A stretch of DNA of 28,075 nucleotides from a virus. Every line of letters begins with the position of its first letter. Positions within the stretch are counted from its first letter, which is position 1. The notes under the pieces were generated by a model. The model was not told the origin of the DNA, did not search any database, and was given only the letters and a program-made list of their open reading frames with translations. Shown piece by piece: positions 3,123 to 17,995 of this stretch. Where the stretch lies: positions 1 to 28,075 of the IMG/VR virus record IMGVR_UViG_3300047481_002797. One strand, 5' to 3'. Both the position numbers and the translations under genes were made by a program.

Positions 3123-4265
3123 ATGTCCAAATACAGTGTTTACCAACATTGGGATCCTCTCCGGGCCTGCGTAGTGGGACAATCGTATCCACCAGAATTC
3201 TATAAATGGATCAAAAACACCAGAGTAAGAAATCTATTTGAAAAAATCGCCGTAGAGACCGAAGAAGATTATCAGGCGATCATACGCAAACTAAACGAAT
3301 TTGGTGTGCAGACTTTTAGACCTCTGTTGCCCCACAATGCCTTTATCGATGGGAGATATCTGCCGCCGCCCATGACACCAAGAGATTGTATGGTCATGAT
3401 TGGTGATAGGTTCTACAAGGGATATCAGTTAGATTTTGCAAAATTTTACGACAACGTTAAAGACCCCACTTGGCCAAAATGTGATAGTTTTGACCAGTTC
3501 AACCAATTGCCCATCGAAATACAGACTGAATGTCGAGAACTACACAGTCTTGACAAATATCTACAATTCTATTCATCTTATGACCATATCTTCGAACATA
3601 TCAGACAGCAAGGCAATGTGGTAAAATCAAGCCTGGGTAATTTTACCAACGGGGCTTATGTCAGCCGTGTGGGTCGAGATTTGTATTTTGGCACAACAGA
3701 ATATGGGCAGAACACCGAGCAGTATCAAGAATTACTGGATCAAGAATTCACGGACACTCGCAATCACATTGTTGATACAGGTGGGCACAGTGATGGCACC
3801 TACTGTCCTGTATGTCCAGGGTTGATTATCAGCCTAAATGATGTGCCTACATATTCAGATACTTTTCCAGGCTGGGAGGTGGTTTATCTTCCAGAACAAA
3901 GTTGGTCGAAAGTCAAACCATTCTTGCATCTCAAGGAAAAAAACAGTGGAAAATGGTGGATTCCGGGATTTGAATATGATAATGCCGTAATTGAAACTGT
4001 GGAAACATGGTTATCGCATTGGACTGGATATGTACAAGAAACAGTGTTTGATGTTAATATGCTGATCGTCGACCCAAAAAATGTGATGGTTTTCAACGAA
4101 AATTCCAAAGTTTTCGATGCACTAGATCGTCATGGTATCACGCCACACGTGACACCATTTAGGCACCGATACTTTTGGGATGGTGGTATACATTGTGTAA
4201 CATTAGATCTCGATCGAGAGGGACAGATGCAGGATTTTTTCCCCGAAAGATCCAGAATCGTTTGA
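3123..4265 (+). CDS. Amidinotransferase (glycine/inosamine-phosphate amidinotransferase family)
   Basis: A 380-residue protein of usual length for the L-arginine:X amidinotransferase family. The start [15 protein letters not shown] matches the conserved first strand and loop. The central catalytic segment is [14 protein letters not shown], with the His and Asp of the HxD triad part, and the C-terminal nucleophile segment is [14 protein letters not shown], with the catalytic Cys in GGxHC. Enzymes of this family move the amidino group of arginine to an amine (glycine, inosamine phosphate, or intermediates of guanidino natural products) through a Cys-amidino intermediate. The acceptor cannot be read from the sequence. 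It follows the 2187 gene without a gap and precedes the groES late-type promoter. Confidence 0.9.
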
Positions 4266-4284
4266 CACAGCGGTATCAATCCTG

Positions 4285-4292
4285 TATAAATA
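4285..4292 (+). promoter_or_regulatory. T4-type late promoter motif upstream of groES
   Basis: A perfect TATAAATA, the core of T4-type late promoters recognised by gp55-like sigma factors. Transcription would begin near 4300, giving a groES leader of about 60 nt that contains a small hairpin (CAGTGCCC/GGGACTG). Confidence 0.65.
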
Positions 4293-4357
4293 TAGTTTGC
4301 TCAGTGCCCATTGGGACTGCGCAAATTTTCTTGCTTAACCTAAAGGAGAAAAACGCA

Positions 4358-6297
<1,940 letters not shown>

Positions 6298-7994: not shown

Positions 7995-8687
7995 ATGACA
8001 ATACCTTATACATATTTGATTGGTTGGAACCATTTAGATCGATGGTATTATGGAGTAAAATTTTCTAAGCACTGCTCTCCAAACGATTTTTGGGTGACCT
8101 ATAAAACCTCATCAGATCTTGTTAAAAAATTTGTAATCGAACATGGCGATCCTGATATTCGTGCAATCAGAAAAACATTTTGTAAAGCAGAAGATGCTGT
8201 CAAACACGAAGACAAAATTTTACGAAGAATAAAGGCAATTGAGAGTGCTCGTTGGTTAAATCAGAATCGAAGCGGTATAGAATTTTTCCGTAATGGCCCT
8301 TGTAGTCAAGATCATAAAAACAAAATTAGTCTAAGTAAAAAAGGAAAACCAAATAAGCATCAGGGCCAAACTTTTATCTCGGAAGAAACATATAAAAAAA
8401 TAGGACAATCAAACAGCCAAAATCTTAAAGGTAGAAAAAAAGGATCACTCAGTGAAGTACACAAAGTCAAAATAAGTGAAGGTATAAGAAAACGCAACAA
8501 AATGATTCCGCGGCCGCCTTCCTCATTGGAAAAAAAAGTCAAAATTAGTCAATCAATGAAGGGCAATATTCCGTGGAATAAAGGTAAAAAAGGAATAAGC
8601 GAATCCACAAGACAGAAGATTCGCGAGAAGGCTCTTGAAAGAGAAGCCAAAAAAAGACAACAGAACGCGGCAGGTGACACTGCCTAG
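7995..8687 (+). CDS. GIY-YIG homing endonuclease with NUMOD3 repeats
   Basis: A 230-residue protein whose N-terminus carries the GIY-YIG-type pattern (PYTYLIGWNHLDRWYYGVKF), followed by helices with the conserved Arg and Glu positions in the DIRAIRKTF and HEDKILRR regions. The C-terminal half holds several NUMOD3 DNA-binding repeats (KISLSKKGKPN, KIGQSNSQNLKGRKKG, KISQSMKGNIPWNKGKKG). These are typical of free-standing homing endonucleases of T4-like phages. The gene is clearly more AT-rich than its neighbours, as expected for a mobile gene. No intron boundary is evident around it. Confidence 0.9.
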   Translation: MTIPYTYLIGWNHLDRWYYGVKFSKHCSPNDFWVTYKTSSDLVKKFVIEHGDPDIRAIRKTFCKAEDAVKHEDKILRRIKAIESARWLNQNRSGIEFFRNGPCSQDHKNKISLSKKGKPNKHQGQTFISEETYKKIGQSNSQNLKGRKKGSLSEVHKVKISEGIRKRNKMIPRPPSSLEKKVKISQSMKGNIPWNKGKKGISESTRQKIREKALEREAKKRQQNAAGDTA

Positions 8688-9076: not shown

Positions 9077-9634
9077 ATGAAAACAGTAGGCGAAAAGATT
9101 GAACCATTTGTGGTGACAGGTGTGAATCCTGGATCAGACAAGTTTTTTGACATCACCGAGCAGAGTTTTGCAGGCAAATGGAAGGTCATCGTATTCTACC
9201 CCAAAGACTTCACATTCGTGTGCCCCACTGAGATAGTGGCCTACGACAAGCTGTTCCAAGACTTTGAGGACCGCGATGCCGTGTTGCTCACAGGTAGTAC
9301 TGATAACGAGTTCTGCAAACTGGGCTGGCAGGCCTCGCACGAAGACCTGAAGAAAATACGCCATATCCAGTTCGCTGACACACAGCGTGGCGAACTCAGC
9401 CTCGTGAATCAGCTGGGAGTATTCTTCGCTCCTGCAGGTGCCGCCCTCCGTGCCACCTTCATCATCGATCCCGAAGGCGTGATCCAGCATGTCACAGTGA
9501 ACAACCTCAATGTGGGCCGCAGTGCCGAAGAGACGCTCCGTGTGTTGGATGCTGTCCAGACCGGTGAACTGTGCGAGTGCAATCGCCAGGTAGGTGCTGA
9601 CACCCTGGAAACCAAGCGACTCAAGGCGGCCTGA
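9077..9634 (+). CDS. ahpC: AhpC-type peroxiredoxin
   Basis: A 185-residue typical 2-Cys peroxiredoxin. The peroxidatic Cys is in YPKDFTFVCPTEI (about residues 41-53), the conserved Arg side of the active site is in ALRATFIIDPEG, and the resolving Cys lies in the C-terminal GELCECNRQ segment. It reduces hydrogen peroxide, organic hydroperoxides and peroxynitrite. The start follows an AAAGGAAA ribosome site. It is directly followed by ahpD, with the next ATG 2 nt after the stop, matching the AhpC-AhpD arrangement in which AhpD recycles AhpC instead of AhpF. A host-derived metabolic gene is unusual here and could protect infected cells or phage proteins from oxidative damage. Confidence 0.93.
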   Translation: MKTVGEKIEPFVVTGVNPGSDKFFDITEQSFAGKWKVIVFYPKDFTFVCPTEIVAYDKLFQDFEDRDAVLLTGSTDNEFCKLGWQASHEDLKKIRHIQFADTQRGELSLVNQLGVFFAPAGAALRATFIIDPEGVIQHVTVNNLNVGRSAEETLRVLDAVQTGELCECNRQVGADTLETKRLKAA

Positions 9635-9636
9635 TC

Positions 9637-10149
9637 ATGCAGTGGGTCGATCAGCTCAAAGAAGGCCTGCCTGACTATGCCAAAGATACTCGCTTGAACA
9701 TCGATGCGGTGGTCAAGCGCAGTACCTTGGCCACAGAAGAAGCAGAAGCAGTGGCCTTGGCCGCTGTGTTCGCCACGGGCAATACCCGACTGTGGACCTG
9801 GATCCAGAGCCAGCTAGCCGATCAAAGGGAAGCCGAGGCTGCTATCACTGCCGCTAGTTTGATGGCCATGAACAATGTGTGGTATCCATATATCGAGATG
9901 GTGGATGATGCCAATCTCGCAGGTCTGCCTGCCCAGCTAAGGATGAACGCCATCGCCACGCACGGTGGTACTACCCGGGCCCGCTTCGAAGCCTATAGCC
10001 TGGCAGCATCAATCGTGGGCCGGTGCCATTTCTGTGTGAAGGCGCATTATGATACCTTGAAGACGGAAGGTTACTATGTGGAACAGCTGAGAGACATCGG
10101 TCGCATCGCGGCTGTCATGACCGCGGTAAGCCGTGTGATGGCTGCATAA
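9637..10149 (+). CDS. ahpD: AhpD-like alkylhydroperoxidase / carboxymuconolactone decarboxylase-fold protein
   Basis: A 170-residue all-helical protein with the AhpD redox motif CHFCVKAHYDTLKTEG (CxxC followed by H), located near residues 132-146. The conserved helix with MAMNNVWYPYIEM lies upstream, as in AhpD. In bacteria with AhpC-AhpD pairs, AhpD passes electrons from lipoylated proteins to AhpC. The 2-nt spacing from ahpC supports a joint function. Its stop codon is overlapped by the CATAAATA late motif that precedes tmRNA-1. Confidence 0.9.
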   Translation: MQWVDQLKEGLPDYAKDTRLNIDAVVKRSTLATEEAEAVALAAVFATGNTRLWTWIQSQLADQREAEAAITAASLMAMNNVWYPYIEMVDDANLAGLPAQLRMNAIATHGGTTRARFEAYSLAASIVGRCHFCVKAHYDTLKTEGYYVEQLRDIGRIAAVMTAVSRVMAA

Positions 10150-10152
10150 ATA
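10145..10152 (+). promoter_or_regulatory. Late promoter-like motif before tmRNA-1
   Basis: CATAAATA, one base from the T4-type late consensus, overlapping the ahpD stop. The predicted start near 10158 agrees with the probable 5' side of the tmRNA acceptor piece. Confidence 0.45.
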
Positions 10153-10157
10153 ACAAG

Positions 10158-10231
10158 GCAGTAAAACATTGTTGTATGAAGCGAGTGGAACAACGGGCAA
10201 GACAGGGGTTCGATTCCCCTCTGGTCCACCA
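10158..10231 (+). ncRNA. ssrA: tmRNA-1 acceptor piece (permuted two-piece tmRNA)
   Basis: The 3' (acceptor) half of a circularly permuted tmRNA, encoded before the coding half. It contains a T arm (AGGGG-TTCGATT-CCCCT), the acceptor strand CTGGTCC, discriminator A and encoded CCA ending at 10231. CTGGTCC pairs over all seven positions (one G-U) with GGGCCAG at 10378-10384. TGTTGT (10170-10175) pairs with ACAACA (10420-10425) of the coding piece, a P2-like helix joining the two pieces. There is no D or anticodon arm, so this is not a tRNA. The 5' boundary is estimated. Permuted two-piece tmRNA is known from alpha-proteobacteria, some cyanobacteria and some beta-proteobacteria. Confidence 0.88.
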
Positions 10232-10245
10232 TAAGGAGACTGACA

Positions 10246-10365
10246 ATGCTAGAAACTCTATTTTGGTTGGCGATAGGTGCTTTCATAGGTTGGAATTTCC
10301 CCCAACCCGAATTCGCTAAAAGTATCCAGGCTCGAGTGATAGATATGTTTAGTAAAAAATCTTAG
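10246..10365 (+). CDS. Small membrane-anchored protein encoded inside the tmRNA-1 intervening segment
   Basis: A 39-residue frame with a strong ribosome site (AAGGAG, 8 nt upstream) immediately after the CCA of the acceptor piece; it stops 12 nt before the coding piece. The N-terminal half is hydrophobic (LFWLAIGAFIGWNF), followed by an amphipathic basic helix (FAKSIQARVIDMFSKKS). This is like the very small single-pass membrane proteins found in many T4-like phages. In known permuted tmRNA genes the intervening segment is short and is cut out during maturation; here it is long enough to carry a gene. Function is unknown. Confidence 0.75.
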   Translation: MLETLFWLAIGAFIGWNFPQPEFAKSIQARVIDMFSKKS

Positions 10366-10377
10366 TCTCTTTATGAT

Positions 10378-10533
10378 GGGCCAGCCATGGTATCGATTGA
10401 CGGCACAGTACACTAGTGGACAACAGGTCAGGCGAAGGACCTAATCCTAGCAAAACCACAAACGCCAACGACAGCGTTTACGCACTGGCCGCTTGAGCCT
10501 GCTGAGGGTGGAAGCCCAAGAAACAGAACTTCC
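10378..10533 (+). ncRNA. ssrA: tmRNA-1 coding piece, tag ANDSVYALAA
   Basis: It begins GGGCCAGCCATGGTATCGA, the 5' acceptor strand and D-loop-like part. The P2 strand ACAACA (10420-10425) and a PK1-like hairpin AGGTC/GACCT around AGGCGAAG follow. The tag frame is GCC AAC GAC AGC GTT TAC GCA CTG GCC GCT TGA (10464-10496), giving ANDSVYALAA. The ALAA end is the standard ClpXP degradation signal, and the AND start binds SspB in proteobacteria. A GGAAG/CTTCC hairpin and a terminator follow. The 3' end of the mature piece is set just before the terminator and is approximate. Confidence 0.92.
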
Positions 10534-10562
10534 AAAAACCCTGCTTCTGGCAGGGTTTTTCT
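10534..10562 (+). terminator. Rho-independent terminator after tmRNA-1
   Basis: Stem CCCTGC (10539-10544) / GCAGGG (10550-10555) around TTCTG, with an upstream A run and downstream T run. Confidence 0.88.
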
Positions 10563-10569
10563 TGATTGA

Positions 10570-10600
10570 GGTTGACCAGTATAAATAAAACCAGTACAAT
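10570..10600 (+). promoter_or_regulatory. Overlapping sigma70-type and late promoters
   Basis: GGTTGACCA (10570-10578), with TTGACC as the -35 box, a 17-nt spacer and TACAAT (10595-10600) form a sigma70-type promoter. A perfect T4-type late box TATAAATA lies at 10580-10587 inside its spacer. The two would be used at different stages and exclude each other in space. Confidence 0.65.
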
Positions 10601-11802: not shown

Positions 11803-12420
11803 GTGGTGCAAAACTATTCAAAGGCAATAGCCGTTAAATTAGGTGCAGAAAAAAGTAAAATTACTTCTGCTCAAAAACTTCAAGAAAGAATTAAGAAATA
11901 TCTAGAAAATCCGTGTATGTGCAAAAATTGCCAGACGGTATTAGATTATAGTAAGCGTCATAAAATTTTTTGCACCAGTAGTTGTTCAGCAACACATAAT
12001 AATTTAAAAAGAGGTCGTAGAACTACTCCCAAAGAATGGTCCTGCGTAAATTGCGGAAAAGAATATTCGGTGTATAACTGGAAAATTGGAAAATATTGTA
12101 ACATTCAGTGCCAACAAGATTACCAATATAAAGAAAGAATAAAAAAATGGTTAGAGGAAGGTATTTCTTGGAATCTACAAATTCCGGCATGGGCTAAAAA
12201 ACACCTTTCAGATACCAGAGGTTATGCCTGTGAAGTATGTGGCATATCCGATTGGAACAGTAAAACATTATCGCTTGAATGCGATCACATTGATGGACAT
12301 CACGCAAATAATCACCCATCAAACTTAAGGTTAATTTGTCCAAATTGTCATAGCCAAACAGAAACTTATAAGGCTAAAAACAAAGGCAAAGGAAGAGAAA
12401 AAAGAAGATCAGTTAATTAA
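11803..12420 (+). CDS. HNH homing endonuclease with zinc-binding Cys pairs
   Basis: A 205-residue protein starting at GTG (11803, or GTG 11806) behind AAGGAG. The C-terminal HNH domain reads CEVCGISDW, then LECDHIDGHHANNHPSNL and LRLICPNCHSQ, with two CxxC pairs around the catalytic DH and N. Two further Cys clusters upstream (CKNCQTVLDY and FCTSSC; CVNCGKEYSV and YCNIQC) are probably zinc fingers for DNA binding. The gene is AT-rich and sits between tRNA-Thr and the next tRNA, splitting the tRNA cluster. This is a common place for free-standing homing endonucleases of T4-like phages. Confidence 0.92.
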   Translation: MVQNYSKAIAVKLGAEKSKITSAQKLQERIKKYLENPCMCKNCQTVLDYSKRHKIFCTSSCSATHNNLKRGRRTTPKEWSCVNCGKEYSVYNWKIGKYCNIQCQQDYQYKERIKKWLEEGISWNLQIPAWAKKHLSDTRGYACEVCGISDWNSKTLSLECDHIDGHHANNHPSNLRLICPNCHSQTETYKAKNKGKGREKRRSVN

Positions 12421-17046: not shown

Positions 17047-17205
17047 ATGAAACTTTGGGAAGCCACCGTGAGACAACCAGGACCTGGCACCACTGAGATA
17101 AAAGTCAGGATTGGAGCTGACACAGCCGAAGAAGCACGACGCCTGTTACAGCAATTACACGGACCAAGATCAGTGCCTTATCTGCCGCGACAGGTGCCGC
17201 AGTAG
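17047..17205 (+). CDS. Small protein, unknown function
   Basis: A 52-residue frame starting 2 nt after the phosphoesterase stop: MKLWEATVRQPGPGTTEIKV, then AEEARRLLQQLHG. The strand-strand-helix pattern is a common fold of short phage proteins that act on arrays of repeated amino-acid exposure, but no family is assigned. It ends right where the second tmRNA begins. Confidence 0.72.
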   Translation: MKLWEATVRQPGPGTTEIKVRIGADTAEEARRLLQQLHGPRSVPYLPRQVPQ

Positions 17206-17206
17206 T

Positions 17207-17280
17207 AAATAGCAGTATCGCTGTATGAAGCGAAGCAAAATGTGTTCTGGACCCGGGTTCGAATCCCGGCAGGTCCACCA
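17207..17280 (+). ncRNA. ssrA: tmRNA-2 acceptor piece (permuted two-piece tmRNA)
   Basis: T arm CCGGG-TTCGAAT-CCCGG, acceptor strand CAGGTCC, discriminator A and CCA ending at 17280. CAGGTCC pairs over seven positions (one G-U) with GGGCCTG at 17335-17341. CGCTGT (17219-17224) pairs with ACAGCG (17378-17383) of the coding piece; in tmRNA-1 the same helix is TGTTGT/ACAACA, so both strands changed together. The box TATGAAGCGA after this strand is shared by both tmRNAs. The intervening segment (17281-17334) is only 54 nt and codes for nothing. Confidence 0.88.
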
Positions 17281-17334
17281 AAAGCGCATCGGACTGGGAG
17301 TATTTTGTAAAAAGACCTCTGGTGTGCTTCTGAT

Positions 17335-17505
17335 GGGCCTGAACATGGTTTCGACAGGGCAAGGAGTAGTCAAGTGGACAGCGGGGTAGGCGATGACCCT
17401 AAATCAAGCAAAAAAGTAAACGCAAATGATGAGGTTTACACTCTAGCCGCTTGAGGTTAGACGAGGATTTCCGGGTGTTCCTTGTTTCCAAAACACCCGG
17501 GCCTA
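17335..17505 (+). ncRNA. ssrA: tmRNA-2 coding piece, tag ANDEVYTLAA
   Basis: It starts GGGCCTGAACATGGTTTCGA, closely parallel to tmRNA-1. P2 strand ACAGCG and a PK1-like hairpin GGGT/ACCC around AGGCGATG follow. The tag frame is GCA AAT GAT GAG GTT TAC ACT CTA GCC GCT TGA (17422-17454), giving ANDEVYTLAA. A 9-bp hairpin CCGGGTGTT/AACACCCGG (17471-17500) closes the piece; no T-run terminator is visible, so processing or read-through into 17528 is possible. The 3' end is approximate. Confidence 0.92.
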
Positions 17506-17527
17506 TACTTGCACACGGATTTTAACA

Positions 17528-17995
17528 ATGCACCGTATTGATTTTTACCTAGAACTACATTGGGTCAAACAAAGACCTGCTTTGGAGTTTACGGTGAACG
17601 GACATGTGTTGGAGCAGAACGTGCAGATCTTATCATCTGATCAATACGAAGAAAAAGCTGCTATCAAAACTCAGATCCCCGATCTGGAATCCACAAATGT
17701 GATCAACATACGGTTCTATGGTAAAAGTGATCAACTAGTCACCGAGCAAAGCGATCACTGGGTTGATATCAAAAACATAGCAATAGATGACGTGTTTGCT
17801 GATGCCATGCTTATCAACAGCGCGTTCCAACATCAAATGCCGGAGTATTGGGTCGCTGAAATGCTAACGCAAGGACATCGCATAGATTCTGTCTATCAGC
17901 CTGGTACCACTATGAGACTCAACGGATGCTTTTCTTGGCAGTTCAATCATCCATTCATACAACATAAATTACTAGATCTATGGTCACTGGATTGA
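17528..17995 (+). CDS. Beta-rich protein of unknown function
   Basis: A 155-residue protein beginning MHRIDFYLELHWVKQRP, with alternating strands (LEFTVNGHVLEQNVQIL, VINIRFYGKSDQL) and a middle DIKNIAIDDVFADAML. The strand pattern suggests a beta sandwich such as a carbohydrate-binding-like domain, but I cannot name the family. It overlaps the next gene by 16 nt, so it probably acts with the oxygenase-like protein. Confidence 0.75.
   Translation: MHRIDFYLELHWVKQRPALEFTVNGHVLEQNVQILSSDQYEEKAAIKTQIPDLESTNVINIRFYGKSDQLVTEQSDHWVDIKNIAIDDVFADAMLINSAFQHQMPEYWVAEMLTQGHRIDSVYQPGTTMRLNGCFSWQFNHPFIQHKLLDLWSLD

Follow-up and report, generated by a model that had tools for sequence, protein, structure and literature searches.

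Sequence comparison gives good support to the conclusion that small protein genes repeatedly occupy the intervening segment (IVS) of phage permuted tmRNAs, one such occupant being a 39-codon gene in the 28,075-nt viral contig from IMG/VR that was analysed here (the window). In the literature on two-piece tmRNAs this segment is treated as waste, whereas in many phages it carries genes.

A protein gene between the two pieces of tmRNA-1

The tmRNA that houses the gene (tmRNA-1) is called by ARAGORN at 10139-10587, and it matches the Rfam model RF04321 (tmRNA_permuted) with 120.1 bits, the gathering cut-off being 47. Its acceptor stem forms across both pieces with 7 of 7 pairs (GGGCCAG with CTGGTCC, the third pair being G-U), the T arm has 5 of 5 pairs, and the tag frame, ANDSVYALAA*, ends in the degradation signal. 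The order of acceptor piece, IVS and coding piece, the paired acceptor, the T arm and the ALAA end of the tag are those of the permuted two-piece tmRNAs described by RF04321 and RF01850; unlike these, the window tmRNA holds a protein gene in its IVS. The original prediction had placed a 39-codon frame with an AAGGAG site between the CCA end at 10231 and the GGG at 10378 with which the coding piece begins, and ARAGORN, Rfam and the sequence itself bear out both the coordinates and the description (Table 1). The frame fills 82% of the segment and starts 14 nt into it. The IVS of the other permuted tmRNA on the contig is 54 nt long and free of a frame, as had also been predicted; that tmRNA has the usual coding-piece motif and belongs to a different subtype.

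The unusual coding-piece motif of tmRNA-1, TGGTATCGATTGAC, and the presence of a second tmRNA on the same contig could be taken to mean that tmRNA-1 is a decaying copy in which the gene merely landed. We regard this as exceedingly improbable, since the seven acceptor pairs with their G-U third pair, the full T stem, the tag and the perfect 12-bp closing helix are all intact, and since the same coding-piece motif is found in four further tmRNAs (L401, L437, L499 and L594).

Table 1. Features of tmRNA-1 and its intervening segment in the window, with the second tmRNA for comparison
Feature	Position	Strand	Basis
Acceptor piece of tmRNA-1: T arm, acceptor 3' strand CTGGTCC, discriminator A, CCA	10139..10231	+	ARAGORN; RF04321 match from 10170; acceptor pairing
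Intervening segment (IVS), 146 nt, from acceptor piece to coding piece	10232..10377	+	ARAGORN, RF04321, acceptor pairing
IVS closing helix, 5' strand TAAGGAGACTGA, partner 10362-10373	10232..10243	+	RNA fold; register conserved over 206 IVSs
AAGGAG Shine-Dalgarno site within closing helix, 7 nt before ATG	10233..10238	+	Sequence; opening energies
39-aa gene MLETLFWLAIGAFIGWNFPQPEFAKSIQARVIDMFSKKS, ATG 10246, stop TAG 10363-10365 inside helix 3' strand	10246..10365	+	Homologues, purifying selection
IVS closing helix, 3' strand TTAGTCTCTTTA	10362..10373	+	RNA fold; conserved register
Unpaired TGAT closing the IVS, common to 163/206 IVSs	10374..10377	+	IVS comparison
Coding piece of tmRNA-1: 5' acceptor strand GGGCCAG, tag ANDSVYALAA* at 10464-10496	10378..10587	+	Sequence, ARAGORN, RF04321
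Terminator-like hairpin in tmRNA-1 coding piece, by eye	near 10537-10562	+	Sequence
Second permuted tmRNA, 54-nt IVS without frame, for comparison	17188..17545	+	ARAGORN, RF04321, acceptor pairing

The 39-codon gene belongs to a conserved phage protein family

The 39-aa gene has a homologue in Pelagibacter phage Mosig (CDS Mosig_00204, with 51% identity and E=1e-7), and homology, a conserved GAFIGWNFPQP core and purifying selection place it in an unnamed family of small phage proteins, MLETLFW. A degenerate DNA pattern for the GWNFPQP core fetched 120 viral stretches; searches with this pattern and with tblastn located the family at 120 of the loci then collected, most including the start and end of the gene, and a later tally gave 179 family matches outside any detected IVS, the loci being partly redundant and selected by the pattern. 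Compared with 114 homologues, the window gene has a median pS of 0.82 and a median pN of 0.22, and compared with the best-scoring homologue (L120) a pS of 0.78 and a pN of 0.07. These values indicate that the 39-codon frame is a real protein gene under strong purifying selection, and a chance frame is ruled out by the homologues and the selection together. The best PHROG match of the protein is weak (phrog_20849, E=0.014), and no phage record matched the locus in a blastn search. Hydropathy gives a weak indication of the membrane peptide that had been suggested (peak Kyte-Doolittle value of 1.3 over 17 residues).

A comparison of related phages had been proposed for the conservation of both the frame and its position in the tmRNA. 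The homologues and the pS and pN values show the frame to be conserved as a protein, but its position is not conserved, as among all homologues found the window copy alone sits in a tmRNA. The marine phages Melnitz and Mosig carry a permuted tmRNA as the window does, according to the tmRNA passages of PMC9004378, which report a riboswitch and no gene in the IVS; Mosig shares the small gene of the window, but there it lies ~29 kb from the tmRNA in the same genome. The frame is absent from the contigs, possibly fragments, of the closest relatives by AhpD (L126-L129). All the other homologues are located away from tmRNAs, so either the gene would have entered the IVS in the lineage of this phage, or IVS copies of it would be rare.

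Intervening segments carry many different small genes

Viral contigs were surveyed for permuted tmRNAs with DNA-pattern searches for several IVS lengths, in which the two pieces were placed by acceptor pairing and a TGGTNTCGA-type motif and the IVS sequence itself was not used. The survey yielded 219 distinct tmRNAs with 207 distinct IVSs; almost all of these come from viral contigs, and four stem from records of bacterial genomes or from their surroundings. A frame was counted as qualifying when it started within the first 26 nt and filled at least 70% of the segment. Such frames are present in 10 of 22 IVSs of 115-130 nt, 12 of 18 of 130-145 nt, 17 of 22 of 145-175 nt and 22 of 28 of 175-330 nt, whereas end-preserving shuffles of the same length classes qualify in 14, 11, 6.6 and 2.5% of cases, respectively. 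When related IVSs of at least 115 nt are grouped, 46 of 65 independent groups carry a frame. In 17 frame families, each represented by one pair, the pooled pS is 0.41 and the pooled pN 0.16, and changes are distributed over the three codon positions as 145/102/226, a pattern that indicates that the IVS frames are coding.

The frames represent ~38 protein families of roughly 30-83 aa, one or two of them doubtful (e.g. L222). Gene-bearing phage IVSs are marked by a frame that fills most of the segment and starts 9-15 nt after the CCA, and the window IVS has these features in its frame filling and start position, together with a helix over the ribosome-binding site. Other IVSs hold other genes, which rules out a one-off insertion in the window. 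One occupant (L369) is a PGDYG-type protein with a Pfam PGDYG match, found in 738 phage records, and another (L346) matches PHROG 13558 and is found in 56; most of the others gave no match in PHROGs, and several have no homologue among 50,697 phage records. Two frames are present per IVS in L142 and L377, and a 24-residue hydrophobic frame of the MNDDLTPLAIGVVVVLVVFAIVLL type is common to 11 short IVSs of 83-91 nt.

Several segments have other contents. Conserved long IVSs free of frames, perhaps structured RNAs, occur in L244, L288, L295 and L297 (119 nt) and in L258, L266 and L300 (115-117 nt). The IVSs of L307 and L217 apparently contain a tRNA or a fragment of one, with a T-arm-like stretch near the 3' end, and resemble the single case of a tRNA in an IVS in PMC11915505. 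The IVS of L442 includes another T-arm/acceptor-like stretch, which ends in CCACCA and is a possible trace of duplication.

The ends of the segment form a helix over the start site

The ends of the IVS form a helix of 10-12 bp, which in the window is a perfect 12 bp. Across 206 IVSs the first ten nucleotides pair with the ten that precede the last four in 93% of cases, as compared with 50-58% in neighbouring registers, and GC, CG, AT and TA pairs replace one another, with four or more pair types at several positions. Short IVSs that hold no gene have a helix of the same strength. It therefore belongs to the tmRNA and presumably serves processing first, and that it covers the start site may be incidental to this role.

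In the window the helix contains the entire AAGGAG site and the stop codon. The 5' strand in gene-bearing IVSs is often TAAGGA or a near relative, and 39 of 64 gene-bearing IVSs have a Shine-Dalgarno-like word within their first 12 nt, compared with 1 of 26 long non-coding and 2 of 64 short ones. The stop codon of gene-bearing IVSs is often part of the 3' strand or follows it directly; the TGA of the terminal TGAT serves as the stop in 13 families, and in 10 of 38 families there is no stop inside the IVS. With a folding model that leaves out ribosomes, proteins and kinetics, opening the start region of the window gene is predicted to cost 16.6 kcal/mol in the full precursor and 4.3 kcal/mol before the 3' strand has been made. 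The corresponding predicted medians, with one copy per family, are 10.0 kcal/mol (precursor) and 2.3 kcal/mol (nascent), and for 111 free-standing homologues of the window gene the predicted value is 2.5 kcal/mol.

These values bear on how the gene would be expressed. The original prediction held that processing cuts would release the IVS as a tiny mRNA that is then translated. Removal of the IVS from permuted tmRNAs by tRNA-processing enzymes is described in PMC11915505, and the frame and its ribosome site lie wholly within the segment; the part of this proposal that puts a true gene into a segment removed by processing is supported. The release of a ready mRNA is not supported, as the free IVS would retain the 12-bp helix that hides the AAGGAG site, and opening this site is predicted to be costly in the precursor; moreover, the 10 families without a stop in the IVS count against it, since the excised piece would there be a non-stop message. 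We consider translation from an excised mini-mRNA improbable. The start site is predicted to be accessible in the nascent RNA and poorly accessible in the precursor, which favours translation before helix closure over an excised message.

A simpler reading takes the segment to be a neutral parking place in which any sequence is tolerated between the paired ends, so that phages with compact genomes retain genes at this place, and the genes are translated normally, with no regulatory link to the tmRNA. The great diversity of the occupants agrees with it, as do the long non-coding IVSs, the tRNA-like inserts in some IVSs and the free-standing state of the window gene elsewhere. It accounts less well for the overlap of the start site with the closing helix in most families and for the strong drop in predicted access upon helix formation, which distinguishes the IVS genes from the free-standing homologues. 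Weighing both sides, we give this reading a real but minor chance.

A proposed conflict between translation and tmRNA maturation

The best joint explanation, which we think somewhat more probable than its negation, is a recurrent gene slot combined with a helix that makes translation and tmRNA maturation mutually exclusive. The anatomy is described above; from it and from the folding model we infer a mechanism in which the helix may act as a translation switch. The gene and the tmRNA would be transcribed as one precursor, and ribosomes would load onto the nascent RNA before the 3' strand of the helix exists. Once RNA polymerase has passed the end of the IVS, the helix would form and shut the start site, and in its closed form it would expose both tmRNA pieces to cutting by the tRNA-processing enzymes. 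While a ribosome is translating the frame, the helix would stay open and its closure would be delayed, such that expressing the gene and maturing the tmRNA would be mutually exclusive states of one transcript. A search of the + strand of the IVS found no promoter-like or terminator-like site. A single precursor, on which the original prediction was conditional, is therefore the simplest reading, the result being agreement and not proof. The homologues of the window gene live without a tmRNA, and coupling to it is therefore not needed for the function of the gene. The mechanism would set the translation of an RNA as a message against its folding into a functional RNA, a simple conflict that is open to testing.

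The families without a stop in the IVS suggest a further possibility, akin to the non-stop control of ArfA, in which their products would be tagged by the tmRNA itself and the peptide would accumulate only when trans-translation fails. The likeness lies in the absence of a stop from the processed piece in these 10 of 38 families (L274, L299, L303, L314 and L333 are examples of such IVSs), and in three families copies outside an IVS do have stops (L342 vs L300; L352 vs L445; L354 vs L390 and L267). The idea is inapplicable to the window gene, which ends on its own TAG and gives no indication of control by tagging. In an uncut precursor, moreover, the stop-less frames acquire a stop inside the coding piece, and the stop may have been lost simply because the helix strand is used as the 3' end. 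Even for the subset concerned, we judge such feedback very improbable. In L274 the IVS frame continues in frame across the coding piece into the tag (...KANEDSFVAERLAA*).

Beyond the mutually exclusive states proposed above, we tentatively entertain a broader picture, in which the disposable segment would be a standard gene slot of phages whose processing helix doubles as a translation switch, the transcript serving first as an mRNA and then as a rescue RNA, and the stop-less subset providing built-in substrates of the same tmRNA. This picture would more probably be wrong than right.

Occupants change within one tmRNA subtype

The motif TGGTATCGATTG marks the tmRNA-1 subtype, which comprises tmRNA-1 itself and the tmRNAs of L401, L437, L499 and L594. 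The IVSs of L401, L437 and L499 are 69-72 nt long and free of genes, that of the window holds the 39-aa gene, and that of L594 measures 494 nt and contains a 152-aa frame. The tmRNA thus stays while its occupants change, and the subtype offers natural swaps between an empty segment, one coding for 39 aa and one coding for 152 aa. The contig of L594 also has the small gene of the window at another place (L062). The permuted tmRNA of L594 (1003-1800) was not reported by ARAGORN, and its RF04321 score is below the cut-off; dozens of small phage proteins brought to light here are likely to be overlooked by gene callers and tmRNA finders.

Several occupants also adjoin a tmRNA in other contigs, and entry into the slot would therefore most likely occur by local rearrangement. 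Of 27 homologues of other families that lie outside an IVS, 13 are within 150 nt of a tmRNA on the same strand, mostly just upstream (examples are found in L300, L426, L373, L390 and L499); these 27 are the copies in loci with a detected tmRNA, which were fetched for their tmRNAs, with some bias as a result. One route would be a tandem duplication of the permuted tmRNA that leaves a gene flanked by the two copies, followed by loss of the inner pieces. In L177, a homologue 93% identical to the occupant of L368 lies downstream of an acceptor piece whose T loop is altered and upstream of a changed coding-piece motif; here the occupant was kept and the tmRNA has perhaps decayed.

Relation to known systems

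The precursor of a permuted tmRNA is cut into two pieces by tRNA-processing enzymes, as related in PMC11915505, a 2025 tmRNA survey that mentions a single IVS holding a tRNA gene and another holding a repetitive element; searches of its main text turned up no protein gene inside such a segment. More broadly, we found no published case of such a gene in the openly licensed literature, including passages of PMC11915505, PMC9004378 and PMC4131195, which is not proof of novelty. A close parallel is provided by the group I intron tmRNAs with a homing endonuclease, which, according to PMC11915505, likewise have a protein gene in a segment removed from the mature tmRNA. In those tmRNAs a self-splicing intron lies in the T loop and codes for the endonuclease, whereas in the window the segment lies between the two pieces and is cut by tRNA-processing enzymes, and the small proteins are unrelated.

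Bacterial genomes and the phage setting

In 299 Pseudomonadota genomes we found 89 permuted tmRNAs, about 2 of which have an IVS longer than 115 nt, the length being taken as match length minus 181, a value calibrated on the two tmRNAs of the window. Among 200 Burkholderiales, 9 were above the cut-off, and most of their IVSs are very short. The strict pattern for an IVS of ~115-175 nt gave three matches in 84,980 genomes, of which L387 alone has a frame; its family is also present in viral contigs. The rarity of long IVSs in bacterial permuted tmRNAs rules out a common bacterial feature. The large contigs with gene-bearing IVSs are phage-like, a terminase match being present in 8 of the 16 records tested.

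In the window, frames at 4175-6297 resemble GroES/GroEL and those at 9077-10149 an AhpC/AhpD-like pair, the names being taken from the sequence. The latter pair lies directly upstream of tmRNA-1, and such genes also adjoin the tmRNA in L211. By their sequence, frames at 11803-12420 and 7995-8687 resemble proteins of the homing-endonuclease type, the first of them being located inside a tRNA array.
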